DNA of 64,000 nucleotides, taken from assembly GCA_021234155.1 (NCBI GenBank), contig JAJEKV010000026.1:4078644-4142643 (forward strand). The letters run 5' to 3'. This document shows positions 1,322-57,540 of the stretch, in pieces; positions within the stretch are counted from its first letter, which is position 1, and each line of letters opens with the position of its first letter. Origin of the DNA: Isoetes taiwanensis (lineage: Eukaryota; Streptophyta; Lycopodiopsida; Isoetales; Isoetaceae). Made by a program: the position numbers and the translations under genes. The notes beneath the pieces were generated by a model. It was given only the letters and a program-made list of their open reading frames with translations. It was not told the origin of the DNA and made no database searches.

Positions 1322-4170
1322 ATGGTTTTTAATTTGATGAGTTTAGCATATGCACAAAATACTATAAGTATGAATACTCTGTGTACAAGTACACAATGTA
1401 TTAATACTCTACGTATAAGTACTGTAATTTGTAAAACTACTCGTATAAATACCATGCGTACAAAATACTATAAGTATGAATACTCGGTGTACAAATACAC
1501 AATGTATTAATACTCTATGTATAAGTACTGTAATTTGTAAGACTACTCGTATAAATACTATGTGTACAAAGTACTATAAATATAAATACTCTGTGTACAA
1601 ATACACAATGTATTGATACTCTATGTATAAGTACTGTGATTTGTACTACTCGTATAAATACTATGTGTACAAAATACTATAAGTATGAATACTCTGTGTA
1701 CAAATACACAATGTATTAATACTCTATGTATAAGTACTGTAATTTGTAAGACTACTCGTATAAATACCATGCATACAAAATACTATAAGTATAAATACTC
1801 GGTGTACAAATACACAATGTATTAATACTCTATGTATAAGTACTGTAATTTGTAAGACTACTCGTATAAATACTATGTGTACAAAATACTATAAGTATGA
1901 ATACTCTGTGTACAAATACACAATGTATTGATACTCTATGTACAAAGTACTGTAATTTGTAAGACTACTCGTATAAATACTATGTGTACAAAATACTATA
2001 AGTATGAATACTCTGTGTACAAATACACAATGTATTAATACTCTATGTATAAGTACTGTAATTTGTAAGACTACTCGTATAAATACCATGCATACAAAAT
2101 ACTATAAGTATAAATACTCGGTGTACAAATACACAATGTATTAATACTCTATGTATAAGTACTGTAATTTGTAAGACTACTCGTATAAATACTATGTGTA
2201 CAAAATACTATAAGTATGAATACTCTGTGTACAAATACACAATGTATTGATACTCTATGTACAAAATCTTTGTAATTTGTAAGACTACTTCATTATAAAT
2301 ACTATGTGTACAAAATACTATAAGTATTAATACTCTGTGTACAAATACACAATGTATTAATACTCTATGTATAAGTACTGTAATTTGTAAGACTACTCGT
2401 ATAAATACTATGTGTACAAAGTACTATAAATATAAATACTCTGTGTGCAAATACACAATGTATTAATACTCTATGTATAAGAACACTATTTTGTAAAGCT
2501 ACACGTCTGTCTAGAGTACAAAATACTATAAGTATGAATACTGCGGTACAAGTACACAATGTATTAATACTCTATGTATAAATAATTGTAATTTGTAAGA
2601 CTACCGTGATAAATACTATGTGTACAAAGTACTATAAATATAAATACTAGGTACAAATACACAATGTATTGATACTCTATGTATAAGTCTTGTAATTTGT
2701 AAGACTACTCGTGATAAATACTATGTGTACAAAATACTATAAGTATGAATACTGCGGTACAAATACACAATGTATAAATACTATGTATTAATACTCTATG
2801 TATAAATCTTGTAATTTGTAAGACTACTCGTGATAAATACTATGTGTACAAAGTACTATAAATATAAATACTCGTGTACAAATACACAATGTATTGATAC
2901 TCTATGTATAAATCTTTGTAATTTGTAAGACTACTCGTGATAAATACTATGTGTACAAAATACTATAAGTATGAATACTCACGTGTACAAATACACAATG
3001 TATTAATACTCTATGTATAAATCTTTGTAATTTGTAAGACTACTTCATATAAATACCATGTATGTACAAATACACAATGTATTAATACTCTATGTATAAG
3101 CTTTGTAATTTGTAAGACTACTCATTATAAATACTATGTGTACAAAATACTATAAGTATGAATACTCTGTGTACAAATACACAATGTATTGATACTCTAT
3201 GTACAAGTACTGTAATTTGTAAGACTACTCGTATAAATACTATGTGTACAAAATACTATAAGTATGAATACTCTGTGTACAAATACACAATGTATTAATA
3301 CTCTATGTATAAGTACTGTAATTTGTAAGACTACTCGTATAAATACTATGCATACAAAATACTATAAGTATAAATACTATTTGTACAAATACACAATGTA
3401 TTAATACTCTATGTATAATTACTGTAATTTGTAAGACTACTCGTATAAATACTATGTGTACAAAATACTATAAGTATGAATACTCTGTGTACAAATACAC
3501 AATGTATTGATACTCTATGTAAAAGTACTGTAATTTGTAAGACTACTCGTATAAATACTATGTGTACAAAATACTATAAGTATGAATACTCTGTGTACAA
3601 ATACACAATGTATTAATACTCTATGTATAAGTACTGTAATTTGTAAGACTACTCGTATAAATACTATGTGTACAAAGTACTATAAATATAAATACTCTGT
3701 GTGCAAATACACAATGTATTAATACTCTATGTATAAGAACACTATTTTGTAAAGCTACACGTCTGTCTAGAGTACAAAATACTATAAGTATGAATACTCT
3801 GTGTACAAGTACACAATGTATTAATACTCTATGTATAAGTACTGTAATTTGTAAGACTACTCGTATAAATACTATGTGTACAAAGTACTATAAATATAAA
3901 TACTCTGTGTACAAATACACAATGTATTAATACTCTATGTATAAGTACTGTAATTTGTAAGACTACTCGTATAAATACTATGTGTACAAAATACTATAAG
4001 TATGAATACTCTGTGTACAAATACACAATGTATAAATACTCGGTGTATTAATACTCTATGTATAAGTACTGTAATTTGTAAGACTACTCGTATAAATACT
4101 ATGTGTACAAAATACTATAAATATAAATACAATGTGTACAAATACACAATGTATTAATACATTTTGTAAA
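1322..4170. repeat. ~106-bp AT-rich tandem satellite (about 27 units)
   Basis: The unit contains ACTACTCGTATAAATACTAT, TGTGTACAAAATACTATAAG and GTATTAATACTCTATGTATA. The word AATTTGTAAGACTAC recurs at 1741, 1847, 1954 and 2060, so the period is 106-107 bp. Each unit is built from shorter ~18-20 bp sub-units ending in AATACT or ATACAC. Units in the middle (about 2500-3120) carry small indels, while flanking ones are nearly identical, which suggests separate rounds of homogenisation. The short ORFs here are repeat artefacts. Confidence 0.95.
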
Positions 4171-14699: not shown

Positions 14700-16161
14700 C
14701 CTTTTGTTTGAAATGTTATGGTCATGTGGGTTTGGATAAGACCATATCACACAATCTACTAGCTCCCTTCTCGGTGGGTCAGAGGGATTCATGCGCCATC
14801 TCTTGTTCCAACAATCCTATACAACTCTTTATCATCCAAGCTTTTCTTCTTGCTCACTGGTGCCCAATACTGAACCATGAACCATGGGCGTTCATTGCTA
14901 TCCACATCAGTACATGGGTCAGTTAGTGCTTGTCCTAGCCAAATTGGGCAGATATCTTGATCAGGCCTCACAAGCACAAAGCAACATTTGTGTATATCAT
15001 CAAAAGGTGTCCACTCTGGTAGACCATGTCATTTTGGCCGTGCACTTTTATTGCCAACGTACTAGTTTTTCATTGCTTAATAGTCTCCCACCTGGACCAC
15101 CAACTTATGGATCTAAAGAATCTTTCCACCTATTAGATGGTAGAAAACCATCTATCAAATAGAATTCTCACTTGAAGTCTTTGTGAGTTTGCTGAATATA
15201 CTCTCCCAATATGCAATCAAGATATGCAATGATCTTCTTTTCACTTCAGACACGTTATTTTGCTCTTGCATGTGTTTCGAATGTGCAATATATGATTGTA
15301 TACCCTTTTGAAATTGCACGACATCTTTCACTGACTTGTATGGTGCCATAGGCTTTAGGTAGGATAGATCGGCCTTGTTCATGTTTCTTCCACATTTCTA
15401 TACCCTGAATTGGTTCCCACGACTGATCTGATGGTCGAAATTTATGTTGCATGATTGGAATGCCATCCCTCATACAGAACTTGAACTGCAGTGGTTTAGA
15501 ATGTTCAGTAAGTGTTTGTTTACCATCAATCATGTACCTTTCTACAAATCCTTTCCAATTAGGTACTTCATCTATTAAAAATGCAACTGGTGAAGGCAAG
15601 ATAGTGGTAACTGATTCCCTGCTCAAACGACTTGAAACATTGCCAAACAATGCATCAATATCATCATGTGTATGTCCGACCATCATGAAGCCCACCTTCA
15701 CACATTCAAACACACCCATTGCTGTTAAGTATGAACAAGCTTGAAATAACCATCTATTTTTGTTCTCCTTGAAAGCAATTGTCTAGTTGGAGGTACAATT
15801 CTGATGGTAACTTCTTTGGCTATAGTGGTTGTTCTCCTTGAAGCAATTGTCTAGTTGGAGGTACAATTCTGGTAATAATTTCTTTGGCTATAGTGGTTGG
15901 GCTATCCATGTCTTTTCTATGACATGCAATCCCTTGTTTGTGAGCCTCAAATGCATCTTTGTCCATCAAAGCTCCAAGCAATTCACCTGGTAAAGGTTTA
16001 TTTTTTATGGAAGTGCTATCAATTCTACGTTCAATATTCCTTAGGCATTTGAAGATAGATCCAACATAAAAATTAGGGCCATCTACCCAAAGCTCCAATG
16101 TAAAATGACCATATGTTCCAGCACCATGACCATGAGTTAGCATCCCACAACTTTTGGGCAC
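14700..16161 (-). pseudogene. Transposon protein with VGHTHDDID motif (DUF7869-like), copy 1
   Basis: The minus strand reads through several blocks in order. 16161-15820 gives HGHGAGTYGHFTLELWVDGP. 15719-15255 gives MGVFECVKVGFMMVGHTHDD, IDALFGNVSSRLSRE and a Gln/Phe/Lys-rich stretch, and 15382-15155 gives IAYWESIFSKL. 14977-14789 gives MLVRPDQDICPIWLGQALTD. The VGHTHDDID motif followed by a Ser/Arg-rich helix is characteristic of a widespread plant transposon-associated protein family (DUF7869-type; name from memory). Frames change between blocks, partly where introns would be and partly at real damage. A ~70-bp tandem duplication at about 15773-15890 (TTGTCTAGTTGGAGGTACAA twice) breaks the frame. 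A second copy with the same C-terminal order lies at 60396-61377. Confidence 0.6.
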
Positions 16162-17704: not shown

Positions 17705-20109
17705 TTTTTTTTTTTTTAAATGTAATTCTTCTTGATTTTTTCTTCCTTGGGATTACTAGGGGATCTATATTATTTTAATTTGCTCCTTTCGCTTATCTCC
17801 TCCTTAACATCTTCTTTGTCCTAATGTATTCTTTCCCTAGGTCCTCCCTGGTATCGTCTACCTTTATGTTTAAATCCTTTTTCTGATTTTTCTATTTTCT
17901 TTACCAGTGTAAGTTCTATCTCACGTTTAGGGTTAGCTCGGCCAAAAAATCTTTCTGTTCGATGGCTGGAGATGTTTTCGTACTCATACTAACAGATCGC
18001 AATTGTCATGGCCATGGTTTTGACGGTTCGCTACCATGTCAGGGTTGCAGCAAAACTTTCCATTTCGGCTTCTTATACCTGAGATCTTTAGATAATTTTT
18101 CCCTACTTATAGTTTCGCTTGCTCTCCATTGTTAGCCGGCTTGTTCCTTTTGTGGATGGGAAGAAAGAAGGGCGGCTTAAATAAAGCCACCATCGTCAGG
18201 TTACAAAAAGATAGAGAAATGGCTGAGAAAAGGAAGAATCTCTTCGGTTTGGTTTCCATAAGCACGCTAAAGCTTCATTACATCTCATAAGTCCGCTCCT
18301 ATTGAAGGTGAAGATAGCTCGCGACCAATCATAATTACATTCGGGATATTTTGCCTAGTATGGCAAAGACAATTTGTTTCCAGTTCTCTCGAGATCCCCC
18401 TTCTTTCTTGATCCTGCTCAACATGATAGTGTTGCTCCTCAAAATGTCGTCAATCAGGTTGCCACATTAATTTTTGGTTCCCACAAGCTGCCTTATGGTT
18501 TTGGCTAACCGGTTATGTTCTTTAATTCTGTTGGGTTTCATATTAAATGCTTCATTCTGTGCTAAAGAATCTAGAAAAACCTTTTTTTTTTTTTTTTTTT
18601 GTTGAAGGACGTCAGACTTTATTCAATCAAAGAGTCAAATACAAGTATAAATGCAGAGACAGGAATAAAATCTCAGCGGATAAGCAGAGATCCACCGAGT
18701 GAAGCAACCTGCCTAAGCATAAGAGTGCACATCCAAATACTCCTCAAAAATCAATCGCCTCTTGCGAGGGGCAAGTGAAGAACAATGATACGACTTTACA
18801 ATGTAACCTTGAGCTTCTAGAAAAACCTTTGATGCCTAACCCCTTCTCTTATCTTATTTAAACATTTGTCTTATTCTGCCCAGTGCTTCTTTTCTAATTT
18901 ACTCATTAGTTATGTCTTTCATTCTCAGACAGGTGCTGCTTATTCCTTATGTTCTTTAAATCTGCTATGCTGCCAGGATTTGTTAAATTACCAGTGACCC
19001 TTCTAGAATCTCACTTTAAACTACATTATTTCTTGACAACTATGTTTGGCCCTTGATCCACGTTTCTGTTGATCTGCAATTTTTCTGCTCATAATGTATT
19101 ACTTTCTAAGTTGCCTATGGTGAAAGGCATTAAATTTGGTTCTTTAATTGCATTTGGGTTGCATATTATATTGCTTCATTACGTTCTAAAGAATCTAGAA
19201 AACCTTTAATGCCTAACCTCTTCTCTCATCTTATTTAAGCATTTTTATTACGCTTGAGTTCTTCTTTTCTAATTTTCTCATTGGTTATGTCTTCCAATCT
19301 CAAAGTGTTTGCGATTTTCCTTATGTTCTTTAATTCTGCTAGGCTGCCCTGATTTGTTAAATTACTTGTGACCCTTCTAGAAACTTTCACTTTAAACTAC
19401 ATTATTGTTTCGACAACTATGTTTGGCCCTTGGTCCACGCTTTCACCGATCCGCAATTGTTTTTGCTCATAATGTATTACTTTATAAGTTGCCTATGGTG
19501 AAAAGCGTTAAAATTTGTTTTGTCCTCTGCTTTGCACATGTAGCTTAACTTATTACCCTTCTCAGGCTAATTTTGTTATGGTTCCACTGCAGGTAACCGG
19601 ACTAAACCCTCCATGTGGTTTCTTGGCTTGGTCTCGAGCATGGTTTCTGCTCATATCTACAATTTCTTCCGTGTGGTGATATTCTACAGACTTCGGATTG
19701 TAGTTGATGTCCTTTTTTGATAATCTCTATCTAAATGGTTCTTCTGGTCTACTTTGGTTCTATGTTGCAAAAAACATCTTGCTGGCTTTAGTGCCTTGTT
19801 ATATCAGTCTTAATTCTGACCTTTATATAGATATTTACGTTTTTAATTTTTTGCTATTACGCATCTCTTGGTTCATTATATGAGTCTGTTTTTCTACATA
19901 CTTCAATTTACGTGTAACAATATTCTTAGTTGTGAATATAACTTTCTTGCTATGCTGTTTTTATTGCTTCTAGTATTAAGTCCTGTTATGTTATTACTTT
20001 TCTTTTCCAATCTTTCCCTACTGTTGTACATTTTTTTCCTTTGTTCATATTTTACTTTACTTCATATGCTACTAGGTTTTTGGTTTCTCCCTTTTTTTCT
20101 CTAGGATAT
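17705..20109 (+). mobile_element. Retroelement 5' module, copy A, first half
   Basis: This segment is near-identical to 46690-48800 for ~2.1 kb once its own insertion (18585-18830) is discounted. It begins after a T run with ATGTAATTCTTCTTGATTTT in both copies. It carries the same ATG-led basic exon (MGRKKGGLNKATIVRLQKDR in copy B), but here that exon has frameshifts. Pyrimidine tracts followed by CAG and GT sites suggest a gene with several introns. The match stops at CTCTAGGATAT (20109), where an LTR element is inserted, and resumes at ATATCTTGTCG (31493). Confidence 0.85.
18570..18830 (-). mobile_element. Retroposon with poly-A tail and 15-bp target duplication
   Basis: TCTAGAAAAACCTTT occurs at 18570-18584 and 18816-18830, while copy B (near 47524) has it once. 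Between them lies a T run (18585-18600, the poly-A tail of a minus-strand insertion) and a ~215-bp body that shares ~145 bp with the copy at 16918. The 5' end (minus strand) starts AGCTCAAGGTTACATTG. I see no convincing A or B box, so this is either a LINE 3' end or a non-tRNA SINE. Confidence 0.85.
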
Positions 20110-21697
20110 TGTGACGTCCCCTACTCATATACGGTGCACTCACCGTATACAAACAGAGTTCATCCCCCATACCAGCTCCATGCTAATATAGGGCCCTCCA
20201 CGTATCACAAGAACCTTGAAGAGTTCAATTGGGAAGAATGAAGGGTCCTTTACCCTGCCTCCCTCGTGGCCTACCTAGTCAGCGAAGCGTAAACATACAT
20301 GTCAAGAGTACATACATCAACATCATATGACCATCACGAAGGATGGTCCTCCACATATCTGCATAGACAAAGATCAAAGACATCACATAGGGAATCCTAC
20401 CCAAGGCTCGGACTCAAAGGGATGATGACGGCTTGGGTCTCCGTTGAGTTCATTGCGCATGTAATTCATGGCAATGGATTTGGGCGGGTATAAGAACATG
20501 GCATAGGGTTGTCCACTCCATCCGCCCTCCCGTGCACACTTTGCGAGTAGTAGGTCAAAAGTGTGGGACTCGATCAGAGCCTCACGGATGCATAGCCAAA
20601 GGGCTACTCCCCGGGTCATCATCCCAGTTCGATGGGGCAGGTAGGGATCACTCCTCCGTGAGATCTACATGCCGACTCAAGGTGACTAGAGGGCCACCGC
20701 CCGTATTCGATTGAACCCATGGAAAGTCATGAACACCACTTCACGGGTAAATGAGCCCATGCCTTACCCACACTCAGTGGTAAGCCATTAGACCTAGTCA
20801 CAATGATCCCCTTTAGGCCTTACACACCGGAGGGATCGCTCCCAAGAGTCAACACTAACCTCCTTCTTAGCCGGTCCCTGCCCCTTCACCCACAAACTGT
20901 GTGTGGTTCTTGTACACAGGCCTAATCTATGGTGTGCTAGAGAGGCTAATCTAGGAGCATCTACTACCAAGCTTTGAAGTCTCTACCCCCTTCCCAATAC
21001 AAGGAGTTCACAGAGATACATCATCCATATACATCACGTAAGAACTAAAGAACATAGATCTAATCTATATCATAGAGTTAGGTTCTTTAGTTAGAGTCCG
21101 GTATCTACTCATCTAGAGATCTAGATAGTCGCTAAAGGCGATTTAATAGGCTAAACCCATCGATACAATGACCGGAAAACGGTTTAGACCATTAAATCGA
21201 CTACATACCTGATCCATGAGTTGCTCCTCCTCGACCGAAGTTCGACCATCCCACCGAACCGCCGAATCAAGGGAAACTAATGGTGCCATTCTCTCGAGAC
21301 GAGTCCGGGAGGCGGTTTTGACTCATAGAGCAGCCAAAACAGAGCTCTAAAACCCTAGGAAATAAAAAATGGGCAAGTTAGGGTTCTTCTACTTAAATAG
21401 GCAAGGGTTGGGACTTAGGGTTTCCAATTATCCCTTTAGGCATGTGGGATAATTGGAAATGGGCCCACTTGCCTTTAATGGCTAGGTGGCCAAATGTGCC
21501 TACATGGAAATGTGTGCACCTTTAATAAATGTGCATGTGCACATTAATAAGAAGTGCACATACCTAGCAAGTTGCCCCTAGGGCTACTCACCGCTACACG
21601 CGTCTACAGACATCGCCGGGCTTGAGGGAGCGGTATGCTGCGACGAGACAAGACAAGATACGCCCGGGACCGTGATAATCGTGGCCGGAACGCCACA
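20110..21697 (-). repeat. 3' LTR (left copy in window)
   Basis: It starts TGTGACGTCCCCTACTCATA and ends CGGAACGCCACA on the plus strand, so both ends fit TG...CA with a short imperfect inverted repeat. It is ~90% alike to the LTR at 29907-31491, with many small indels, mostly loss of 2-6 bases in one copy. Confidence 0.88.
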
Positions 21698-29906: not shown

Positions 29907-31491
29907 GTGGACGCCCCCTACTCATATGATTGCACTCACCAGGATACAAACAGAGTTCATCCCCATACCAGCTCCATGCTAATATAGGGCCCTCCACGAT
30001 CACCGCAACCCTTGAAGAGTTCCAAAGTTGGGAAGAATGAAGGGGTCCTTTACCCCCCGCCTCCCCGTGGCCTACCTAGTCGCGAAGCGTAAACATACAT
30101 GTCAAGAGTACATACATCAACATCATATGACCATCACGAAGGATGGTCCTCCACATATCCGCATAGACAAAGATCAAGACATCACATAGGGAATCCTACC
30201 CAAGGCTCGGACTCAAAGGGATGACCGACGGCTTGGGTCTCCGTGAGTTCATTGCGCATGTAATTCATGGCAATGGATTTGGCTGGTATAAGAACATGGC
30301 ATAGGGTTGTCCACTCCATCCGCCCCTCTCCCGTGCACACTTTGCGAGTAGGTCGGAAAAGTGTCTGGGACCCGACCGTAGGCCCCACGGATGCATAGCC
30401 AAAAGGGCTACTCCCGGGTCATCATCCCAGCCCGATGGGGCAGGTAGGGATCACTCCCTCCGAGATCTACATGCTGACTCAAGGTGACTAGAGGGCCACC
30501 GCCCAGATTCGATCGGTGAACCCACCGGAAAGTCATGAACACCACTTCACGGGGTGTCGAGCCCATGCCTTACCCACACCTGGTAAGCCATTAGACCTAG
30601 TCACAATGATCCCCTGTAGGCCTTACACACCGAGGGATCGCTCAAGAGTCAACACGAACCTCCTTCTTAGCCGGGCCGGCCCCTTCACCCACAACCGTGT
30701 GTGGTTCTTGTACACAGGCGAATCTATGGTGTGCTAGAGAGGCTAATCTAGGAGCATCTACTACCAAGCTTGAAGTCTCTACCCCCTTCCCAATACAAGG
30801 AGTTCACAGAGATACATCATCCATATACATCACGTAAGAACTAAAGAACATAGATCTAATCTATATCATAGAGTTAGGTTCTTTAGTTAGAGTCCGGTAT
30901 CTACTCATCTAGAGATCTAGATAGCTGCTAAAGGCGCATTTAATAGGCTAAACCTAATGATACAATGACCGAAAAACGGTTTTAGACCATTAAATCGACT
31001 ACATACCCGATCCATGAGTTGCTCCTCCGACCGAAGTTCGACCATCCCACTTTTGAACCGCTTTCGAATCAAGGGAAACTAATGGTGCCATTCTCTCGAG
31101 TCCGGGAGGCGGTTTTGACTCATAGAGCAGCCAAAACGAGCTCTAAAACCCCTAGGAACGAAAATGGGCAAGTTAGGGTTCTTCTACTTAAATAGGCAAG
31201 GGTTGGGACTTAGGTTTCCAATTATCCCTTTAGGCATGTGGGATAATTGGAAATGGGCCCACTTGCCTTTAATGGCTAGGTGGCCAAATGTGCCTACATG
31301 GAAATGTGTGCACCTTAATAAATGTGCATGTGCACATTAATAAGAAGTGCACATACCTAGCAAGTTGCCCCCTAGGGCTACTCACTGGCTACGCCTACAG
31401 TACACGCCGGTTGGAGTGGCGGTACGCTGCGATTTAGAGAAAAGATAAAGATAACGCCCCGGGACCAGATAATCTTTGTCCGAACGTCCTG
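29907..31491 (-). repeat. 5' LTR (right copy in window)
   Basis: Direct repeat of 20110-21697, beginning GTGGACGCCCCCTACTCATA and ending CCGAACGTCCTGT. The divergence between the two LTRs means the insertion is not recent. Confidence 0.88.
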
Positions 31492-42484: not shown

Positions 42485-45400
42485 TTGTCTAGGCATTTTG
42501 CCAAAATTCACTTTGATATGGAGGCTGTTCTTTTTGCTAGGACATGTTTAGAAGATGACTTGGGAAGGAAGTTTGTTATTGGCTTGAAACACCTTGAAAA
42601 AGTTCATGATATGAAGTCTTCTCTTCATGTTAACGCGGATACTGATTCTAATACAGATAATTGTTTGAATGATAGTGTGAGAAACTGCCTTTTTTCTGAC
42701 GAAGATTTAATTGATGATGAGATACCCGAAGGTGATAGAATTGATTGTAACAGCCAAGAGGTGGATGACCAGGAGGAAGTTCCTACTTTAACCCTTCAGA
42801 ACTCATCAAAATTTCCTATTATTCTAGACCAAAATGTTGAATGTTTTGCTGCTGTTTGGAATCATGCGATTTAGAGAAGCCAAAACTTTGGTGCGCTTGC
42901 GCCAATTAATATTGATACTTGGAAAGCCTTGGCTGGGATTATTGACGATGAAGTCAGATCTGCTACTGTTAAGGCAGCAAAGCTTGAGAAGTATTTCACG
43001 AAAAAGGAAATTAACCTACCTGTACCTGCTGATTTCTTTGGACAACCATGTCTTTATGGTACTGCTTGGCACATCAGCCAAAAAGGGAATATGGCCTACT
43101 CTAATGACACGAGAGATGGATTTTTTCTAAAAAAACTATGGAGAATGCATTGCCCTTTTTTATCTTGTAGTTGTGATAAATCAGTCAAGAAGAATGACAA
43201 ATCTCTGGAATGCAGAAGTGGAATTGTTTGGATTGACCAAGCTGTATGGTTCATCTTGAACAACTTGGATATTGTTTTTCCTGACTCTTCGCCTATGGTT
43301 AAGATGGTCGGCCTCACCAAGCTATTGCATAATGTGCTGAAACCAGCTATTCTTGCATACATTTCTTATCTTGAAGTTAGGAAGATTTTTATCAACATGA
43401 CTCTTTATTATGCTGATTCTCCTAACAGTGACCTTAAGGCTGCCTTTGGCAACAACAAACTTGCTGATATTGCAGAAAAAACACTTAGGCCTGTTGCTTT
43501 TAGGCATAGCCAGATCGCCAAAAGGAAATATACCCCTGCCACCATGGATGGATCCTCAAACGGTACCTCTTCAAATTTGTTCACTCCGAAGAGACCTCCA
43601 AGAGTGACCAGTGTAGTACCGTACTTCCATACGTACAGAAGTTTTTTACGTTTTTTACGTATGATACCTCTTAACGTACTCGCAGAAATTTAACGTACCT
43701 AAAAAAATTTCGGTACGTTAAAAGTTCAGAGGTACGTTACGTACCGTACCTATAAAAAATGTACGGTACCTTAGAAAAACCTTGAAAAAACTTAAAAAAC
43801 CTTTAAAAAACGTAAAAAACCTGTAAAAAACGTACCGTACCTCAAAAAAACGTAACGTACTTCAATTTTTTTTTTTTTTTTTGGTTGATCGCAGAATGCA
43901 TAAAACCATTCCGTACGTACTGTACGTCCAGTCCGGTACGGTAAGTACCCAGAAGGTACCGTACGCGTACGTAACCTACACTGAGAATGACCTCTGATCC
44001 TCGCCTTTCCATTAGCATTGGTACAGCTTCCAACAACATTGATGACAAAACTGATGCAGATCGCAATTTGGATGATTATTCTGTCACCAAGGGTGGGAAC
44101 AAAATAATTTCTTTGGATGGTGGTATTCCGAACAAGTTAGACTACACTGACATTACAAGGTTCGTTCTATTTATGCTTTTCATATTCTCTTTTCAGCACA
44201 ATTGTTTATACAATATGTTATCTGTTCTGAGCTATTAGATAGGCACCAAGGGTTTTTTATGGGAAGAGTTTTCCCTTGGTGTCTAGTTGTTTTAAAAAAC
44301 TTTTAAATATCAATATCCTTATTTACTTGGGGGCTGCTCTGCTCCAAAACTATACTATCTCTGATTATTCCTTTCTTCCATAAACTATATTTAACCCTTT
44401 TAACTTATTCCTAGTTCTGTCTAGATACTCCCTACTAAACTATTAAATATTTTTTTAGGATATCCTTCGTAACACAAGATCAGTGGTTAAAGACTGCAAT
44501 CGAAGAAGGCATTTGATTACTGAAAAATTAAAAGACAAGACTAAAGTGGTTCACAATACGTTTTTTTCGAAGGCCTTGGAGAAATTCAGTATACGAAGTA
44601 TTTTCAGTGATGTCCTAATGGCGTCTATCCCTTTTCTAACCGTTGATTTGTTGGACAATACCCTTTTTGGATGGAGATATCTTAACCAACTAAGGGATAA
44701 GCTTTATCGTCCCTTTGATGTTTTTGCTGATGGTTTTCCCAAGAAATGTCCATGTCAAAATCCTACTTTGGCTAAGTTCATTAATCCTGCAGTTGGTCAT
44801 ATACGTACGATGGACCTTGATATTATTCATTGCCCAAAGCTTAAATTAGCTTTGTCTTATGGTCTCAACCATATTCCGGACTCCTCTTTTTCCAAAGCTC
44901 AATTTACTGTTGACTTCAAAGCTACCGTTGAACAGTTTTTTGCTGTTCACCAGTTCCGTATGTTGCATTTGTCTGATATGGAGATTGAAACTATTAAAGA
45001 TAAGTTGGTGGACTTAGCTGGCAGTCGTATTTCTGACTTCAAGAGCAAAAATAATTCTAAAAGATTCCTTTGGGATGATGGTAATGTTAGAAAAAACATC
45101 TATTGCCTGAAGAATAATCTATATATTTCAGAGGTTGACAAGGCTGGGAATAATGCTTCTTTTATTTGCCAGAAACACGTTAGGGAAATGGCCCTAGTCA
45201 GACTAGACAGCCCTGATTTTGAGAAAATTCCATTTAGTGTCCAAGAGATCAAACATGAATGTATTGATGGGATCTCTAATTTGTTAAATCTCCAGCATCC
45301 TTCATGTAATGGGTTACCCTACCTTATGGGTATTTTCAAGGCTCACAAAGGAGAGTATAGGTGGCTTACGAATGCTCACAACACTGTCTTCACCGAAATC

Positions 45401-46513
45401 TCTGATTTGTTGACATCTATGTTAAACAACTTTGTCTCTCTCTGGCCAGAGATTTGCCATTGGAATACTGCAGAGGCTAGACTTTGGCTGAAAGATAAAG
45501 TCAATCCATGTTGGCTCATTAATTCTTCGTATGATTTTGTTCTGAATTTACCAAAAAACATTTTTAATGTGTGCTCCATGGACATCACTAAGTGTTATGA
45601 GAACATTCCTCTCGAAGGGAGTGATGGAATTATGGAAGTCATTTCAGATGTAGCCTTCCTTGTATGGGATTTCATGTCTCGAAAATTGCCTTTAGGACAA
45701 CTTGTAGTCTTAAACAGATCAGCTTCTTACAGTGTTAAATGGAAGAAAATCATTGATGGAAAAGTTAATGGTACTATTATTTCAAAACAGGAATTTTGCA
45801 GAATCAACAGTTGGCTTTTAGGCCATTGCTATCTCCAAATGGGTTCCCAGATCTGGAGACAGAAAAAGGGCATTCCGATGGGTTTTTCAAGCAGTCCTGC
45901 CTGGTGTAATTTGTACTTAGCATGGTTTGAACTTAGGTTTATCTCCAGACTTGCTCTTCTTGGAAGGTTTAATGATATTACCAGGTTCCAATTTTCATTT
46001 AGATATATTGATGATTCGTGCATTATTAATGGTGGTGATCTGAAAGAATTCTTCTGCAAAGATGCTGAATTCTCAGTTTATAACATGAACCTTTTGGGGC
46101 TTAAAGATGAGACAATTTATCAGAGGAACTCAGTATTGGGTATGGATGTTAACTTCCTTAATATTTCTGTTCGGATATTGGATCCTCATAATGGCTTGTA
46201 CCACTTCTTTCGATATGATAAAAGGAAAAATCCTAGTTTTAAGGTTAACAGGTTTATCAAGGCACTTGGATGTAGACCTTATGGTCAAACATCAAAAGTC
46301 ATAATTTCTCAGATTTTCCCATATGTTTATGCACATTCAAATTGTGTGACTGCTGCTGAAGACATCTTTGATTTAGTTGTTGCTTTCTGCAACAATGGCT
46401 TCATCAAAGAAGATATCACAAGGATTGTTTTCCGTACTCTCAAGTCTAATAACTTTCCTGCTCTGCCCTTTGACATTGAAGACATATCTAGAATTCTAAG
46501 GAGTTTGCTATAA
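42485..46513 (+). pseudogene. Penelope-like reverse transcriptase gene, 5' truncated, interrupted by a MITE
   Basis: The C-terminal exon (44479-46513) encodes a complete RT core, counted from 44483. Motif A is CSMDITKCYENIP with Asp at residue ~367, motif B is KKGIPMGFSSSPAWCNLYL at ~461, and motif C is FRYIDD with the two Asp at ~510-511. A thumb-like region, FKVNRFIKALGCRPYG then FPYVYAHSNC, follows. The IPMG...S..CNLYL..FE plus YIDD combination and the tail pattern resemble Penelope-like elements. I see no GIY-YIG endonuclease, so it looks endonuclease-deficient or of another RT clade. Upstream coding (from ~42500) runs in one frame with a single TAG at 42872-42874 and continues to 43608. 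After the MITE the frame resumes at 43992. A 319-bp intron (44160-44478, donor AAG|GTTCGT, acceptor CACAAG|A) keeps the frame. Confidence 0.75.
43601..43991. mobile_element. hAT-type MITE (375 bp) with 8-bp target duplication
   Basis: The element is 43609-43983. Its ends are CAGTGTAGTACCGTAC and, on the minus strand, CAGTGTAGGTTACGTACGCG, an 8-bp perfect terminal repeat. Flanking 8-mers are AGAGTGAC (43601-43608) and AGAATGAC (43984-43991), matching at 7 of 8. An 8-bp duplication and CAGTG-type ends are hAT hallmarks. The interior is rich in GTACGT/ACGTAC palindromes and AAAAAACGT words and encodes nothing. Removing the element plus one duplication (383 bp) restores the host reading frame exactly. 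Confidence 0.85.
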
Positions 46514-46623: not shown

Positions 46624-46919
46624 ATCTTGTTTATCACCAATGTTTGGCTTAACATAGGGACTCCCCAATCTGGGGTAGGAGGCAGGTTTTTTTTATGTAA
46701 TTCTTCTTGATTTTTTCTTCCTAGGGATTACTAGGGGATCTATATTATTTTAGTTTGCTCCTTTCGCTTATCTCCTCCTTAACATCTTCTTTGTCCTAAT
46801 GTCCCTGGTATCGTCTACCTTTATGTTTAAATCCTTTTTTCTGATTTTTCTATTTTCTTTACCAGTGTAAGTTCTATCTCACGTTTAGGGTTAGCTCGGC
46901 CAAAAAATCTTTCTGTTCG

Positions 46920-47462
46920 ATGGCTGGAGATGTTTTCGTACTCATACTAACAGATCGCAATTGGCATGGCCATGGTTTTGACGGTTCGCTACCATGCCAG
47001 GGTTGCAGCAAAACTTTCCATTTCGGCTTCTTATACCTGAGATCTTTAGATAATTTTTCCCTACTTATAGTTTCGGCTTGCTCTCCATTGTTAGCCGGCT
47101 TGTTCCTTTTGTGGATGGGAAGAAAGAAGGGCGGCTTAAATAAAGCCACCATCGTCAGGTTACAAAAAGATAGAGAAATGGCTGAGAAAAGGAAGAATCT
47201 CTTCGGTTTCCATAAGCCTGCTAAAGCTTCAGTTCTGTCTCATAAGTCTGCTCCTATTGAAGGTGAAGATAGCTCTGCACCAATCATAATTACATCTCGG
47301 GATATTTTGCCTAGTATGGCAGCACAATTTGTTTCCAGTTCCTCTGAGATCCCTGTCTTTCTTGATCCTGCTCAACATGATAGTGTTGCTCCTCAAAATG
47401 TCGTCAATCAGGTTGCCACATTAATTTTTGGTTCCCACAAGCTGCCTTATGGTTTTGGCTAA
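46920..47462 (+). CDS. First exon of the retroelement 5' module (copy B)
   Basis: The frame is open for 180 codons from ATG 46920. A more likely protein start is ATG 47115, which gives MGRKKGGLNKATIVRLQKDR and then EMAEKRKNLFGFHKPAKASV, a basic N-terminus. The best donor is AATCAG|GTTGCC at 47411/47412. Upstream residues (CQGCSKTFHFGFL) show a CxxC but no known domain. The copy in module A (17962-18507) is the same exon with at least two frameshifts, so this is the better-preserved version. Function is unknown; by position it would be an N-terminal extension or a separate ORF1 of the retroelement. Confidence 0.4.
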   Translation: MAGDVFVLILTDRNWHGHGFDGSLPCQGCSKTFHFGFLYLRSLDNFSLLIVSACSPLLAGLFLLWMGRKKGGLNKATIVRLQKDREMAEKRKNLFGFHKPAKASVLSHKSAPIEGEDSSAPIIITSRDILPSMAAQFVSSSSEIPVFLDPAQHDSVAPQNVVNQVATLIFGSHKLPYGFG

Positions 47463-48977
47463 CCGGTTATGTTCTTTAATTCTGTTGGGTTTCATATTAA
47501 ATTGCTTCATTCTCTGCTAAAGAATCTAGAAAAACCTTTGATGCCTAACCCCTTCTCTTATCTTATTTAAACATTTGTCTTATTCTGCCCAGTGCTTCTT
47601 TTCTAATTTACTCATTAGTTATGTCTTTCATTCTCAGACAGGTGCTGCTTATTCCTTATGTTCTTTAAATCTGCTATGCTGCCAGGATTTGTTAAATTAC
47701 TTGTGACCCTTCTAGAATCTCACTTTAAACTACATTATTTCTTGACAACTATGCTTGGCCCTTGGTCCACGTTTCTGTTGATCTGCAATTTTTCTGCTCA
47801 TAATGTATTACTTTCTAAGTTGCCTATGGTGAAAGGCGTTAAGCTGGTTCTTTAATTCTGTTGGGTTGCATATTATATTGCTTCATTCTGTTCTAAAGAA
47901 TCTAGAAAAACCTTTAATGCCTAACCTCTTCTCTTATCTTATTTAAGCATTTTTTATTCTGCCCAGTGCTTCTTTTCTAATTTTCTCATTGGTTATGTCT
48001 TCCAATCTCAGGCAGGTGCTGCATTTTCCTTATGTTCTTTAATTCTGCTATGCTGCCCTGATTTGTTAAATTACTTGTGACCCTTCTAGAATCTTTCACT
48101 TTAAACTACATTATTGCTTGACAACTATGTTTGGCCCTTGGTCCACGTTTCTACAGATCTGCAATTGTTTTTGCTCATAATGTATTACTTTCTAAGTTGC
48201 ATATGGTGAAAGGCGTTAAGCTGGTTTTGTCCTCTGCTTAGCATGTAGCTTAACTTATTACCCTTCTCAGGCTAATTTTGTTATGGTTCTACTGTAGGTA
48301 ACTGGACTAAACCCTCCATGTGGTTTCTTGGCTTGGTCTCGAGCATGGTTTCTGCTCATATCTACAATTTCTTCCGTGTGGTGATATTCTACAGACTTTG
48401 ATAATCCTTTTTTGATAATCTCTATCTAAATGGTTCTTCTGGTCTACTTTGGTTCTATGTTGCAAAAAACAAAATGGTTGCTTTAGTGCCTTGCTATATC
48501 AGTCTTAATTCTGATCTTTATATAGATATTTACGTTTTTAATTTTTTGCTATTACGCATCTCTTGGTTCATTATATGAGTCTTTTTTTCTACATACTTCA
48601 ATTTACGTGTAACATTATTCTTAGTTGTGAATATAACTTTCTTGCTATGTTGTTTTTATTGCTTCTAGTATTAAGTCCTGTTATGTTATTACTTTTCTTT
48701 TCCAATCTTTCCCTACTGTTGTACATTTTTTTCCTTTGTTCATATTTTACTTTACTTCATATGCTACTAGGTTTTTCGTTTCTTCTTTTTTTTTCTCTAG
48801 GATATCTTGTCGTTTCCATTATTATGTTTTACTTAGTCAATTTTTTATTTGTTTCTTATCATTGCTCATTATTCTATCCATTTTAAAGTCTTCTATACTG
48901 CTCGGCTGTTATACCTATGTACTACTCTGCTTGGTTGACCATCTTTTCCTGTTTTCTCTTGTATCTATGTATGTATC

Positions 48978-51361: not shown

Positions 51362-51759
51362 TTGGGAGGCTTCGCCGAGCCGGCGTAATGGCTTCTATTT
51401 TTTGAGTTAATTGCTTCTTTTTGTGTTGTTTCTTTTCAAGTCATCTCATCCTATGGCGACTTTCTTGCGTTACTTTTCTAACGTCTAATGCATTCTGTTT
51501 GCTTTCTTTTCTCCTAAGTTTTCAGGTGATCATGGCTATTTCTTTTTTTTGAGATGCATCGTCTGATTTGCGACCTCCATCTTGTGCTTCGTCGACTTTT
51601 TCATCAATGATCGTCATTTTGATGGCCGGGGCTTTTCCTTTGGAGCCGTCGGGCGAAGGTTTATCATTAGGGTTTTCCTCGAAAACCCGAAAGGGCGGGG
51701 TTTTTCATCCCGGTGATAAACTTTCGCACGTTGCCTCCTATTTGCCTTTCTTATTTTAC

Positions 51760-52453
51760 GCCATCTCCTCCCATTCCCACAATGCATAGGACACGTACAC
51801 CAGACTTGCCTATGTTTAGAAATTCTAAAACTTTATCCTTGCCAGCAAGGATGTCATCAACTGAAGCAGGCAAGCCAGCAGGAGTATTACATGACTTTTC
51901 CTGTCTCTCAAGCATTTGATTTTGTTTATCTTTTAGCTTTTCCTGTCTCTCAAGCATTTGATTTTGTTTATCTTTTATTAGCAGTTGATTGACGTCATTA
52001 TTCAAACGGTGCAAGGTGTTGACAAGGCGATCAAGCTCAACATTTATATGCTGAGCGTAAAACAATTTGTACAGGGATGTGCAACATTGCCTGTGTACAA
52101 AGAAACTTAAGAAACTGCAAAAGGGATTCCAAACAAGTTTGGGAATTACAAACATCTAAAGGAATTCCAAACAAGTTTGGAAATTACCTGGATTTGTTGA
52201 GGCTGTAAGCCTCTGCATAGAGCTTCGGTAAAGCTTGGCGGACCCATCTTTCCCAATCTCCTCTATCATCTGTGGGAAGTTGATCGATGTTTTTCTGGAG
52301 TTTGTCAGCATAATGTTGGACCTCAATCAACTTGTCGGATGTTTCAAAACTTGCTGCAACAATGCCTACTATAAAACTAATAACTTGGGATATCTGAGTA
52401 GCTATAGGCACTCCATCCGTCAATTGACTTATAATTTGAGCTGTGTCAGCCAT
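51760..52453 (-). pseudogene. 5' fragment of an NLR (NB-ARC) resistance-type gene
   Basis: Exon 1 (52453-52188) starts at ATG with MADTAQIISQLTDGVPIATQ and runs to a CAG|GTAATTT donor. Exon 2 (52090 to ~51760) follows an ACACAG acceptor and keeps the frame. It contains a 14-residue tandem repeat, KDKQNQMLERQEKL twice, predicted coiled coil. It then reads VDDILAGKDKVLEFLNIG and VRVLCIVGMGGDG. The last segment is the beta-strand and first half of a P-loop (normally GMGGxGKTT) of an NB-ARC ATPase. The gene stops there, at ~51760, replaced by unrelated sequence. So the ~190-residue N-terminal signalling domain is present and the whole ATPase and LRR are missing, unless an intron begins at GC|GTAAAA. 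Confidence 0.6.
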
Positions 52454-52544
52454 GAGCCGCGGATCTACCTGCACATCCGCTTCAAAACCCCGTTGGACAA
52501 TTTCATTGATTTAATATCAGCTTCTGATACAAGTAACTACTTAA

Positions 52545-53500
52545 ACTTGTTGCACAAAACATTCTATTTTGAGTGTGTACATTCCATTTTTAGAACATTC
52601 TATTTTGCGTGTTTGTAAAGTTCCACAAAACTTTCTATTTTTAGACTGGGGTACTTGCCTAGGAGTATCTGGAACATTTTACAACATTCTATTATAAGTC
52701 CTTGCAAACTTTTAGAAAACTTCCTATTTTTAGACTATGGTGCTTTTTATTTTTAGGCTGAGGTGCTTATCTATGAGCATCTGGAATATTCCAGAACATT
52801 CTGTCTTGAGCATTTGCAAAGTTCCAAAAAACTTTCTATTTTTAGACATTCTAGAAGATTCTAGGACATTCCAGAAGATTCTAGAAGATTCGAGAAGATT
52901 CTATTTTGAGCATATGTAAAGTTTCAAAACTATTTTTAGACTGAGGTGTTTACCCTAAGCATGTGGAACATTCTAGAACATTCTATTTTGAGTGTTTGCA
53001 AAATTTCAAAAAACTTGCTAATTTTATACTGAGATGCTTACTCAGGTGCATCTGGAACATTCTAGAACATTCTATTTTGAGCATTTGCAAAGTTTCAAAA
53101 AAGTTAATACTTTTAGACTGAGGTGCTTGCCCAGGAATATTCTAGAACATTCTATTTTGACTTTTTGCAAAGTTTTAGAAAACTTTTTATTTTTAGACTA
53201 GGCCATACTTTCTATTGTTAGACCAATGAGCATCTGGAACATTCTAGAACATTGTATTTTGAGCATTTGCAAAGTTCCAAAAACTTTCTATTTTTAGACT
53301 AGTGTACCTTCTTATTTTTAGACTGAGATGCTTGCCCAAAAGCATCTGGAACCTTCCAAAACATTCTATTTTCAGCATTTGCAAAGTTTCAAAAAACTTT
53401 CTATTTTTAGACATTCTAGAAGACTCTAGGACATTCCAAGACATTCTAGAAGATTCTAGAAAATTCTAGAGCTATCTAGAACATCCTAGAGCATCCTTGA
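52545..53500. repeat. Left arm: ~80-110 bp tandem repeats rich in heat-shock elements
   Basis: About ten diverged units of the form CTGGAACATTCTAGAACATT CTATTTTGAGCATTTGCAAA GTTTCAAAAAACTTTCTATT TTTAGACTGAGGTGCTTA. Each unit holds alternating GAA/TTC modules. An arm of the same units in the opposite orientation lies at 57064-57540, on the other side of the methyltransferase gene. Confidence 0.85.
52847..52902. promoter_or_regulatory. Eleven-module heat-shock-element array
   Basis: ACATTCTAGAAGATTCTAGG then ACATTCCAGAAGATTCTAGA then AGATTCGAGAAGATTCTA. TTC and GAA triplets alternate at exact 5-bp spacing for 11 modules, 10 of them perfect (the fourth is GGA). Four-module sites also occur at 52783-52803, 52964-52984, 53053-53073, 53133-53153 and 53235-53255. 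A functional HSE needs three such modules, so HSF binding is plausible. Use in vivo is inference. Confidence 0.55.
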
Positions 53501-53885
53501 ATTATTTAGCCCTCGCCCTTAACTATAAACAAGGCTGCAAATTAAACGGGAGTGTTGCAGCACTCCCGTTTCAAAGATTCCTTAAAAAAAACACGTCTCT
53601 TTCAAAGTTGGGCTTTTTTAATAGAAGTTTAAAATTTCAGGAGTATCAGTTTTTTTTTGGGCCTATTTTTGGGGTCCCTTTTGGACACGACCTTGGTTTT
53701 GTGAAGTGAAGCACGTGAAAATGGCAAAATTCAGAGACGAGTACGTAATTTTATGAAGGTGGATGTAGAAAAAACACAAATTTAGTAAAAATAATAATAA
53801 TTTCTTTACAGTTTTTGTGTTACATCAATAATAGCAATAATCAATGTATCAATGTCAATCAATAACTACAGCATAAGTCAAAGAT

Positions 53886-56800
53886 CTAAAGCATAGTCTT
53901 CTTCATTTTTCTTGCTCGTCTCAGCTTGTCAGATTCTCTCTTTTCATCTTTTTCTGGTGACTTAGGCTTCTCTGTGTTGGTAGTTTCTTCCGGTATTGCA
54001 GCTAGAGCTACTTCTTTCAGCTCTGCAAAAGTAGCTTCGTCATCCAAGGAGCTTGTAAATGGAGGCTGTATCTCTGAAGATGTCATCTTGGCAAAATCAG
54101 ATGAAGACTTGGCGCCCAGCTCTTGATTCTCGTCTGGTAGAGTTGGTAAGGCAAACAGTCTCATCTTGATGAAGTTCATAGCCTCCTTATCAATGTCAAC
54201 GGCTACACAGTTACGGCCCTTCCTAAGTGCACAAGCAATCGTTGTACCAGAGCCGGAAAATGCATCGAGCACCCAATCTCCTGGTCGTGAGAACATTGCC
54301 AGAAGATGGTTAATCAACTTTTGTGGCTTTTGATAATGATTCACTATTCTCCCTTGTGCACTAGGGTCCTGCAGCTTCTGCAATACCGCTGGAAACTTCA
54401 ACACGTTCGAGAAATTTTGGCACGCTGCTGTGTTGAAATGTTCCATTGTACGCTTTCCATCGAAACTCTAGTAAGCGACATGGAGATATTCAACCTTACT
54501 CGGCAGTGTCGGCCCTCCGCCATGGTAATTAATATTTGTTTTATACCTAAGGAACAAAAAAAAACAACAGAGGAGTTAACTTGGACCGAAAGAAACGTAT
54601 TTCCGGAATAGAAACTCCTAACAAGAATGTGAAAATGCTAGTATATGTAACTATAAGTAAAAGTACGTAAAGAAACAAAAAGACATTTGTATTCCCGAAT
54701 AAGTACTTACCAGACCAGGTTTTCATATCCAGCTTGCACTGGGGAACCAAAGTGATTCTTGAAGGTAGCTTCAACTAGTCCGGATTGCATGCTTGAGTGA
54801 AAAACAACTAGCCTCCAATGTTTCGCCGTGGTAATTTGCTTAATTCCGTCGACGAAAGCATTAAACTCAGAGTTTTCAAATGGCTGGTCGTCGTAGCGGC
54901 TGTCTTTAAGCTTGAAGCCATATGGCAGGTTAGCTATTATCAAGGTAAAATCTTGGGGCTTTATTGATTTGGACAACTTCGTGCAGTCACCGTGTACTAT
55001 ACAAAACAGGTTGTTTTGATCGAACATGGTAAAACATTCGTAGTTGGAGGGCTCATTATCCAAAACACGCCTGCCCGCTAACGTCCTCTCCTCCCGTGCT
55101 GTTCTGACCAGGTGCATGAAGCCCTCTGGCAGGCCCTTGTTTTTCTTTTTGCTCTGCAAGAAAGAACGTCTCTGTAACAAGAAAAACGAAAACTTAGAAA
55201 ATAATTCAACATACCCAGCCTTCAAAATTTGGTGCATATTGGATAATCCTTTCGTCCGAGGTTGCGATAGGGTAGAGTTCTTTACATCTTTCCCAGTTGT
55301 CAACGTTCAATTGTTCCATCAAGCATGTTTGACATGTGATGACGTTTTTTTGGCTAAAAAATAACCACAACATTAGAAGAAAGACAAAAGGAAATCAATA
55401 AGATGGAAACACTTTAGAACACTACAAGTGGTGAACAGAGGCAGCTGTTGCCTACACGTCAAACCACAATCCTATTCTGGAATATGGGATCATTTTTAGA
55501 ACAGGCAGTAGTGTATTTCGAATACGTTTTGCTTTTTTTTAGCAGCTAAAGTGTATTCCAGAATACACTTTAGCTTTAGCTTAGAGAAATGTACACTTCG
55601 GAAAACAAAACTAGCAGCAAACAGAGGAAGAGGCGTATTCTGGAATACATTTGTGCATTGGTAATCAAACGTGCCATGAAGCATTTTTTAAATTTTCTAA
55701 ATATGACATCTTGTTATCATTTTAGAGAAGAAAAGCAAATGGTGTTCTGTTATTCTTACTTGTGCAGCTCCTTGGACATTTCTTCTACAGTAAATTCCTT
55801 GTCGACAACCTTCTGCAGTAACCTTTCGAGTAAGTCCATATCTGTGAAGCCCTGCATTTCTCTCCAGACGGTTATTGTCATTTCTTTCTACGGAACGTCG
55901 GATCCTTTTTTCTTATCGGAGACCTTTCCTTTGCTTTTCAATTCTCCACGCTCGAACATGGTAAAAATTTCGTTTTGTAGGTCCCAAATCTGCAAAGAGA
56001 TAAACGAGGCTAGTGGGAGGGCTGTAGGGTCATTCTGGAATACAAAAGATACTTACTCTGTCATCTCTGAAGGCTAGTTGAAACCAGTTGTCGTGTGCTA
56101 TGAGAGACTGCCATTTATTAGCCTCGTCGTACTTGAGGCACCACTCGACAGTACACGCTTCCTTCAGCTCTAAAGAGTTTGCTGGTTTTTTTAAATCTTC
56201 TCCATATTTTTCTTTAAATATTACAAACTCCCTATGCATGAACCTGATCTTGTCGACGAAGCTCATTTTAAGTTTATACTCGTTGTCAGCATTGTGTGTG
56301 TTGGCAACGATCTTCGCTTCTTCGTCTGTCAGGCCACAGTAAACAGCACAGAGGACAGAGAGATATCTCGGGTTTTTTTCCTCCTTGTACAACTGCCTCC
56401 TTGCTTTAAAATTGTGGTCCCCCCCAAGAACATAATGCATATAAGTGTGCATTTTCCCTGGCATAGTCCTTGGGGTCCATGCACTGGGATCTGTCTATGA
56501 GAACGACAATCGGAGCAACATGGGCATTGGGGTTGCTCCTGATTCTATCCTTTAGGTTCCTTAAATGGTCAGCGTAGATCTTTCGAACCTGAAGAGGGCG
56601 GTTACCAGCTTCATTTTTTGGTGGCAACCTCATGGAAGTTACTAGCAAGTAAATTACTCCTTGCACATATTTGTGCAAGTTTATTTCTTCCATCCGCTCT
56701 GAGGTCTTGTCCACCTTTTTTTCCTTGATGGCCACACCTGGTGCGTTGCCCTTTCCCTTCTTTTTTTTCGCTGTTCTTCTGGAATTTCCTGCACAACAAT

Positions 56801-57055
56801 TTCTTGCACTTTGCGTTTTTTAGGTTCTTTTGCTGCAACAGTGCCTCTTGGCCGCCTCATCCTCTGATGCTCTTCTGATGTACTGGGACTTTCGTCCCCT
56901 TCTTCCTGACTGGAGGCATCGTCTTGCCTCTCTTCCTCCACTATGCTGCACCCAAAATCCTCGCTTTGAGTGGATTGAATTCTTTGTACAATTTTCGACA
57001 ACCTCAGCTTATTTATGTAATGCGTCATGTATTTGTACAAAGCTGGAGGTGCCAC
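53886..57055 (-). pseudogene. ParB-like domain fused to beta-class DNA N4/N6 methyltransferase, five exons
   Basis: Exons (minus): 57055-56057, 55989-55760, 55353-55215, 55171-54711, 54546-53886, all joined by GT-AG introns in phase. The N-terminus is acidic/basic linker. A ParB/sulfiredoxin-like fold follows: VRKIYADHLRNLKDRI, APIVVLID, YVLGGDHNFKARRQLY and LTDEEAKIVANTHN. Exon 3 has CQTCLMEQLNVDNWERCKEL. Exon 4 carries catalytic motif IV, IIANLPYGF. Exon 5 has QKPQKLINHLLAMFSRPGDW then VLDAFSGSGTT, the SAM-binding motif, then VAVDID. Motif IV before motif I is the beta-class order (PF01555 type). Bacterial and phage proteins share this ParB-methylase layout. Damage: in-frame TAG at 55888-55890 and 54468-54470, and frameshifts near A8 at ~56770 and near G7 at ~56420. 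The 5' end abuts the right repeat arm. Confidence 0.8.
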
Positions 57056-57063
57056 TCTGCCAA

Positions 57064-57540
57064 GTCTAAAAATAGAAAATTTTTGGAACTTTGCAAATGC
57101 TCAAAATAGAATGTTTCAGAATGTTCCAGATGCTCACGGGTAAGCATCTCAATCTAAAAATAGAAATTATGGTAGTCTAAAATAGAAAGTTTTCTAACTT
57201 TGCAAAAAGTCAAAATAGAATGTTCTAGAATATTCCTGGCCAAGCACCTCAGTCTAAAAGTAGTATCTTTTTTGAAACTTTGCAAATGCTCAAAATAGAA
57301 TGTTCTAGAATGTTCTAGATGCACCTGGGTAAGCATCTCAGTCTAAAAATAGCAAGTTTTTTGAAATTTTGCAAACACTCAAAATAGAATGTTCTAGAAT
57401 GTTCCACATGCTTAGGGTAAATACCTCAGTCTAAAAATAGTATGTTTTTGAAACTTTGCAAATGCTCAAAATAGAATCTTCTAGAATCTCTAGAATGTCC
57501 TGGAAACTTTTGCAAATGCTCAAAATAGAATGTTCAAGCC
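57064..57540. repeat. Right arm: inverted counterpart of the 52.5-53.5 kb repeats
   Basis: About six units read CAAAATAGAATGTTCTAGAA TGTTCCAGATGCTCAC, CTAAAAATAGAAAGTTTT and TTGAAACTTTGCAAATGCTC, the reverse complement of the left arm. Four-module HSE sites lie at 57106-57130, 57216-57236, 57297-57320 and 57386-57406. The arm starts ten bases upstream of the first codon of the ParB-methyltransferase frame, so it occupies the promoter position of that gene. Confidence 0.85.

Follow-up and report, generated by a model that had tools for sequence, protein, structure and literature searches.

Does a bacterial-type DNA methylase gene that lies between two inverted minisatellite arrays in a plant genome form, together with those arrays, a mobile element? 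The question is raised by a locus in a 64,000-nucleotide (nt) stretch of Isoetes taiwanensis DNA (contig JAJEKV010000026.1; the whole stretch is called the window below). There an earlier note had described a five-exon gene encoding a ParB-like domain and a beta-class N4/N6 DNA methyltransferase, exactly between two arms of one ~85-bp repeat, and had proposed the arms as very long terminal inverted repeats of a candidate new element. The other copies in the host genome give a different answer. The window holds a decayed, 5′-truncated copy of a high-copy cut-and-paste host transposon, and the arms around it look accidental when set beside those copies. The parent element carries an iterated palindrome, which its ParB-methylase would most likely bind so as to mark its own element.

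The host genome searched comprises 1,658,258,908 bases in 1,110 contigs. A search with PF01555 gave a match in all 150 scored candidates (first-look candidates numbered 1,443), and 20 loci of 10 kb each were fetched and aligned to the window. Homology of the window copy to other genomic copies is limited by a terminal repeat at 53528 and by a truncation at 57071. The terminus at 53528, a hairpin and then CTTGTT or a near variant, is common to 18 of the 20 loci at up to 5 differences (it was not found in L009 and L010), and the sequence past it is different in each copy (19 loci shown). At the other limit, similarity among copies persists for at least about 3.4 kb upstream of the point matching 57071 in 11 of the 20 loci. 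The copy nearest to that of the window by DNA (91%) has a left end, AACAAGATTGCGTATTAAACGGGAG, which is the inverse of the right end. Such a counterpart stands in seven of eight copies examined, six of them among seven further copies (it was not found in L023). Target duplications of 4 bp (AAAC, TAAG, GGTT, AACT, CTAA and TTTT) flank all six copies for which both ends were read, and these complete copies measure 7,197 to 8,288 bp.

They contain two divergent genes, one for a DDE-like (DUF7869) transposase and the other for the ParB-like/beta-class DNA methylase. Terminal inverted repeats, a target duplication of fixed length and a transposase core of RNase H fold with acidic catalytic residues, all features of DDE-type elements, are present. 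The lack of a transposase, correctly noticed earlier for the window copy, is there only because that copy is truncated. The suggestion that a ParB-methylase could be a gene of a mobile element in a eukaryote, so that the element carries its own DNA-modifying enzyme, holds for the parent family, of which it is a regular gene.

Could the arms nonetheless be the termini? They are indeed oppositely oriented arrays of one repeat on either side of the gene: 246 bp (52929–53174 versus 57196–57441) are complementary at 97%, and similarity is about 90% over 52869–53300 versus 57505–57063. Inversion and similarity are far beyond chance. However, that gene and arms make up one mobile element is very improbable. 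No match to the arms was found in 44 host stretches totalling 243,499 bp and representing about 33 copies (a sample of the genome in which some stretches take in one side of a copy only). The earlier note had itself said that armless copies elsewhere would make the pairing accidental, and armless is what these copies are. Between the arms, some 30–45 bp off the left one, the transposon has a terminus of its own, so that the gene does not sit exactly between them, and the complete copies bear other terminal repeats, with target duplications. All seven copies read at the junction corresponding to 57071 continue upstream as transposon without an arm. The right arm, said to touch the first codons, in fact replaces a part of the gene, the frame of the relatives running on upstream of 57071. 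The 44 armless stretches and the seven continuing copies are what make the arms look accidental.

The C-terminal half of the encoded protein is clearly predicted to be an N6/N4 DNA methylase, as had been recognised. Even the window copy matches PF01555 with E 1.5e-17 (64.8 bits, curated cut-off 26.7) and phrog_67 with E 1.9e-24; the best PDB matches of this half are the CcrM, MboIIA and RsrI methylases. D[LI]PYG (exon 4) precedes DAFSGSGTT (exon 5); these we take to be motifs IV and I (FxGxG), in the order that presumably defines the beta class. That the N-terminal part is ParB-like can be said with moderate confidence from profile matches. In the window copy the ParB profiles remain sub-threshold (DUF6551 E 0.068, TIGR03764 E 0.019), and the claim of a ParB-like domain stands better on the relatives. 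All four of these match TIGR03764, a ParB family (best E 1.8e-4), and DUF6551, a family possibly akin to ParB (best E 0.0053), and two families of ParB partition PHROGs match some of the four. The ParB-like part has a conserved motif, YVLGGNHSFKARRQLY. When the ParB region of the damaged window copy served as query in a protein search, not one of 4,071 candidates reached E <=1. No close relative of the protein was found, the 36 matches spanning 9–26% of the query. One search of viral contigs gave none and another gave two loci, matching in the region of the S-adenosylmethionine (AdoMet)-binding motif only. No paper naming DUF7869 was found in the literature search.

The substitution pattern points to very strong purifying selection on the parent methylase. 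The seven of nine copies that passed the length filter were compared over exons 2 and 4 and a portion of exon 5. Of their 21 pairs, 14 yielded a dS estimate, with a ratio of nonsynonymous to synonymous divergence (dN/dS) of 0.02–0.16, and the other seven were saturated. Comparisons across subfamilies gave a dS of 1.7–2.4, a dN of 0.04–0.05 and a ratio of 0.02. It could be argued that the methylase is chance-captured cargo without a role in the element, as in the alignment of the window copy with 16 others a single row of the 17 is open in all five exon pieces. All four GT-AG pairs are kept in 11 of these rows. The cargo explanation is nevertheless hardly credible given a dN/dS of about 0.02 at a dS near 2, and given the common terminus at which the gene stops in 18 of the 20 fetched copies (which were found by their methylase).

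The two halves of the element have different histories. The transposase half is much less diverged: dS between L018 and L024 is 0.18, against 1.81 for the methylase half. The points at which identity drops along the elements vary between pairs (six pairs), and for this reason the elements look like recombinant mosaics. In L018, L013, L020, L023 and L024 the transposase halves are nearly alike and the methylase synonymous sites are near saturation.

Within this diverged background one sequence is kept. Both the stretch separating the two genes and introns 1, 2 and 4 of the methylase gene contain copies of an iterated 22-bp palindrome, AAGTGTATTCNNGAATACACTT, which is built of a conserved core, TATTCNNGAATA, with a free centre. 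Counted over 21 loci, the 147 kb that extend to the 3′ terminus (some upstream flank at truncated copies included) contain 246 cores, and the 59 kb past that terminus contain none. In the 17 aligned rows there are 118 intronic cores (76 in intron 2, 29 in intron 4 and 13 in intron 1), with none in 41.9 kb of exons or in 5.8 kb of 3′ region. A hundred shuffles of the introns produced no core, and 19 permuted half-sites gave none in introns and at most 3 in 200 kb of 20 loci, versus 238 for the real one. The exact 22-mer is found 3,039 times (its reversed control 0 times), a genome-wide total counted irrespective of element. The whole window has four cores, three in intron 2 and one in intron 4 of the gene copy.

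The arrays might be passive, functionless minisatellites that have spread in the non-coding parts of the element. In intron 2 and, partly, in a second group of sites between the two genes, arrays with a 42-bp period do look like tandem expansion. However, introns 1 and 4 have single or paired, non-tandem sites, and in introns 1, 2 and 4 alike the core (at <=2 mismatches) is present in every one of the 17 rows (intron 3: 0 of 17), though the remaining intron sequence is strongly different between subfamilies (eight rows) and their synonymous sites are near saturation. A palindrome with conserved core and free centre is also not what passive spread leads one to expect, and we regard this explanation as improbable. 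A palindrome retained against a background of nearly saturated neutral change is a candidate for a bound site.

What might bind it? The chief competitor to the ParB-methylase, and a point that could tell against it, is that the transposase or a host factor acting at a promoter or enhancer binds the palindromes, with the methylase directed elsewhere, e.g. to host DNA or to intermediates of transposition. The space between the divergent genes, where promoters are expected, contains many of the sites, the core TTCNNGAA is similar to half a heat-shock element, and transposases often bind iterated subterminal motifs. Yet the sites are also within three introns of the methylase gene, none was found in seven left-end or in two right-end stretches, and iterated palindromes are the classic binding sites of ParB-family proteins. 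Binding by transposase or host factor is accordingly the less likely alternative, though one to be taken seriously.

Binding by the ParB-methylase itself suggests the following scheme. Its ParB-like part would bind the iterated palindrome, the candidate target site being AAGTGTATTCCGGAATACACTT, and its methylase part would then methylate in cis the DNA of the element itself; methylation around the intergenic region would be the most useful. The mark may shield the shared promoter region and the body of the element from host silencing or, alternatively, tell the transposase its own copies. The copy in the window would have acquired its present form in three steps. A complete transposon would have inserted close to a pre-existing minisatellite rich in heat-shock-element-like sequence, a later break would have removed its left part, and fold-back repair into the minisatellite, primed by the microhomology CTATTT..AGACT, would have added the inverted right arm. 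Decay of the window copy, self-marking by the parent methylase via the palindrome and a fold-back origin of the arm are, taken jointly, a reading that we hold somewhat more probable than its contrary.

Several points weigh against that reading. The similarity to ParB stays below curated cut-offs even in all four relatives, a PDB profile search with the ParB part found no ParB chain and comparison with one bacterial ParB-methylase, P0002, gave nothing useful. The dN/dS values are rough where dS is near saturation, a single row is open throughout, and the 22-mers are counted over the whole genome, irrespective of element. The history of the arms, with about 33 copies and one junction as its basis, is the least tested part. 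Fruitless searches (with the damaged query, in PDB, with P0002, in viral contigs and for DUF7869 papers) make the missing annotated relatives weak evidence.

The features of the locus are collected in the table.

Table. Coordinates in the window of the transposon copy, its gene, palindrome cores and flanking arms
Feature	Position	Strand	Basis or remark
Left arm, minisatellite of ~85-bp units containing GAA/TTC runs similar to heat-shock elements, outside the transposon	52545..53490	+	Repeat comparison
Truncated DUF7869/ParB-methylase DNA transposon, right half, 5′ part gone	53528..57071	-	Homology limits versus genomic copies
Right terminal inverted repeat with hairpin ACGGGAGTG..CACTCCCGT, end CTTGTT	53528..53572	-	Same terminus elsewhere
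Exon 5, AdoMet-binding motif DAFSGSGTT	53886..54546	-	In-frame TAG 54468-54470
Palindrome core TATTCNNGAATA, intron 4	54690..54701	.	Core search
Exon 4, putative methylase motif IV region	54711..55153	-	NLPYG in window; D[LI]PYG in relatives
Exon 3	55215..55353	-	Open reading frames, copy alignment
Palindrome core TATTCNNGAATA, intron 2	55473..55484	.	Core search
Palindrome core, intron 2, AGTGTATTCTGGAATACACT on - strand	55554..55565	.	Core search
Palindrome core TATTCNNGAATA, intron 2	55636..55647	.	Core search
Exon 2	55760..55989	-	In-frame TAG 55888-55890
Exon 1 remnant including ParB-like domain (~56057-56620)	56057..57071	-	Open reading frames, copy alignment, ParB profiles
Junction of arm and truncated transposon in shared CTATTT..AGACT (microhomology)	57053..57071	.	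Alignment
Right arm, inverted copy of left-arm part (52869-53300)	57063..57540	-	Repeat comparison

The gene of the window copy runs on the - strand from 57071 to 53886, and its five exon pieces and four GT-AG introns (67, 406, 61 and 164 nt) are borne out. It is not intact: exon 1 has two frameshifts, in an A-run at ~56765 and at ~56440, exons 2 and 5 each have an in-frame TAG, and the N-terminus of the protein is lacking along with the transposase. The I. taiwanensis assembly was built from Nanopore reads, so errors of sequencing could account for part of the two frameshifts, but less easily for the two stops. That the gene is intact and uses a variant code for reading TAG is ruled out, the relatives being open there under the standard code. 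Also ruled out, by inspection, are short introns, of 32–39 nt, that would take the stops or the first frameshift out of the coding sequence.

The heat-shock-element-like runs in the arms are real, but they are the minisatellite's own. All 12 runs of at least three alternating GAA/TTC pentamers in the window are within the arms (means of 0.03 and 0.01 in shuffled sequence), with up to 7 contiguous units. A role for the arms as a heat-inducible promoter was considered, but the 12 are not independent, since the arms repeat one unit, and the right arm is not the native upstream sequence of the gene. The left arm is directly upstream of a - strand frame at 52184–52510 which, with another at 51754–52155, resembles the beginning of a gene for a P-loop (GMGGDGVK) protein.

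Elsewhere in the window, a second DUF7869 transposase fragment (15258–15782, E 3.1e-21) is perhaps from another element family. A 684-amino-acid open frame at 44459–46510 with a YIDDS motif and similarity to reverse transcriptase RVT_1 (E 2.7e-5, below cut-off) is possibly part of a Penelope-like or other unusual retroelement. A long minisatellite with a 106-bp unit in about 26 copies occupies 1354–4145. Large dispersed direct repeats of 91–94% identity, at 17710–21680, 29910–31474 and 46687–48805, are elements of unassigned type.

How new is the element? ParB-methylase transposons as such are already known from algae: passages of PMC12477816 place genes for ParB plus N4/N6 methylase on transposons of brown, green and red algae, and its authors propose there that the methylase may bind and modify its own transposon. 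In Sola1-1_Ec32 of the brown alga Ectocarpus the ParB-like/N4/N6 methylase gene is, as here, on the strand opposite the transposase (PMC12477816). That element is 21.5 kb long versus 7.2–8.3 kb here, and its host is an alga instead of a land plant. The passages of PMC12477816 consulted mention for it none of three features found here, namely mosaic structure, selection and iterated palindromes. The likeness is one of gene content. For the green and red algal transposons the Ectocarpus paper reportedly draws on Iyer 2011 and Petroll 2025. The duplication length of Sola1, which we take to be 4 bp, would match that found here, and the ParB-methylase gene also agrees; a fold comparison listed no Sola entry, which shows nothing either way.

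Fusion of a ParB-like domain to a DNA methylase in mobile DNA is likewise found in bacteria and phages (phrog_67; Bce_0392, a ParB-methylase described in the parts of PMC5512222 consulted); these are prokaryotic, and no close relative of the host protein was among the matches. A precedent for element-encoded factors with tandem-repeat targets is provided by the anti-silencing VANC proteins of Arabidopsis transposons, presumably those named VANDAL. Passages of PMC5735166 report that VANC targets are often tandem repeats and that DNA methylation is lost. As proposed here, a sequence-specific factor encoded by the transposon alters DNA methylation over the element, but VANC removes methylation whereas the methylase would add a mark. 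The open-licence PMC literature searched gave no report of a land-plant ParB-methylase transposon or of an iterated target site, and a text search of the genome paper finds neither ParB nor Sola in the text covered (PMC8566536). While the kind of element is thus known, the land-plant family with its iterated palindromes looks new.

The broadest claim, that a land-plant transposon family has bacterial-type marking in which the ParB-methylase recognises its own iterated palindrome and writes N6-methyladenine (6mA) or N4-methylcytosine (4mC), is put forward tentatively, from comparative data, as rather less than an even prospect. In the passages of PMC12477816 consulted the algal self-marking idea comes without a target site; here a site is proposed. 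With its defined protein, its 22-bp site and its many genomic copies, the family offers a test bed for self-marking by a eukaryotic transposon, and it bears on whether plant nuclear 6mA or 4mC can stem from transposon-encoded enzymes. If the claim is true, the family would tag its own copies and resist silencing by the host, and would be a self/non-self system of a eukaryotic transposon.

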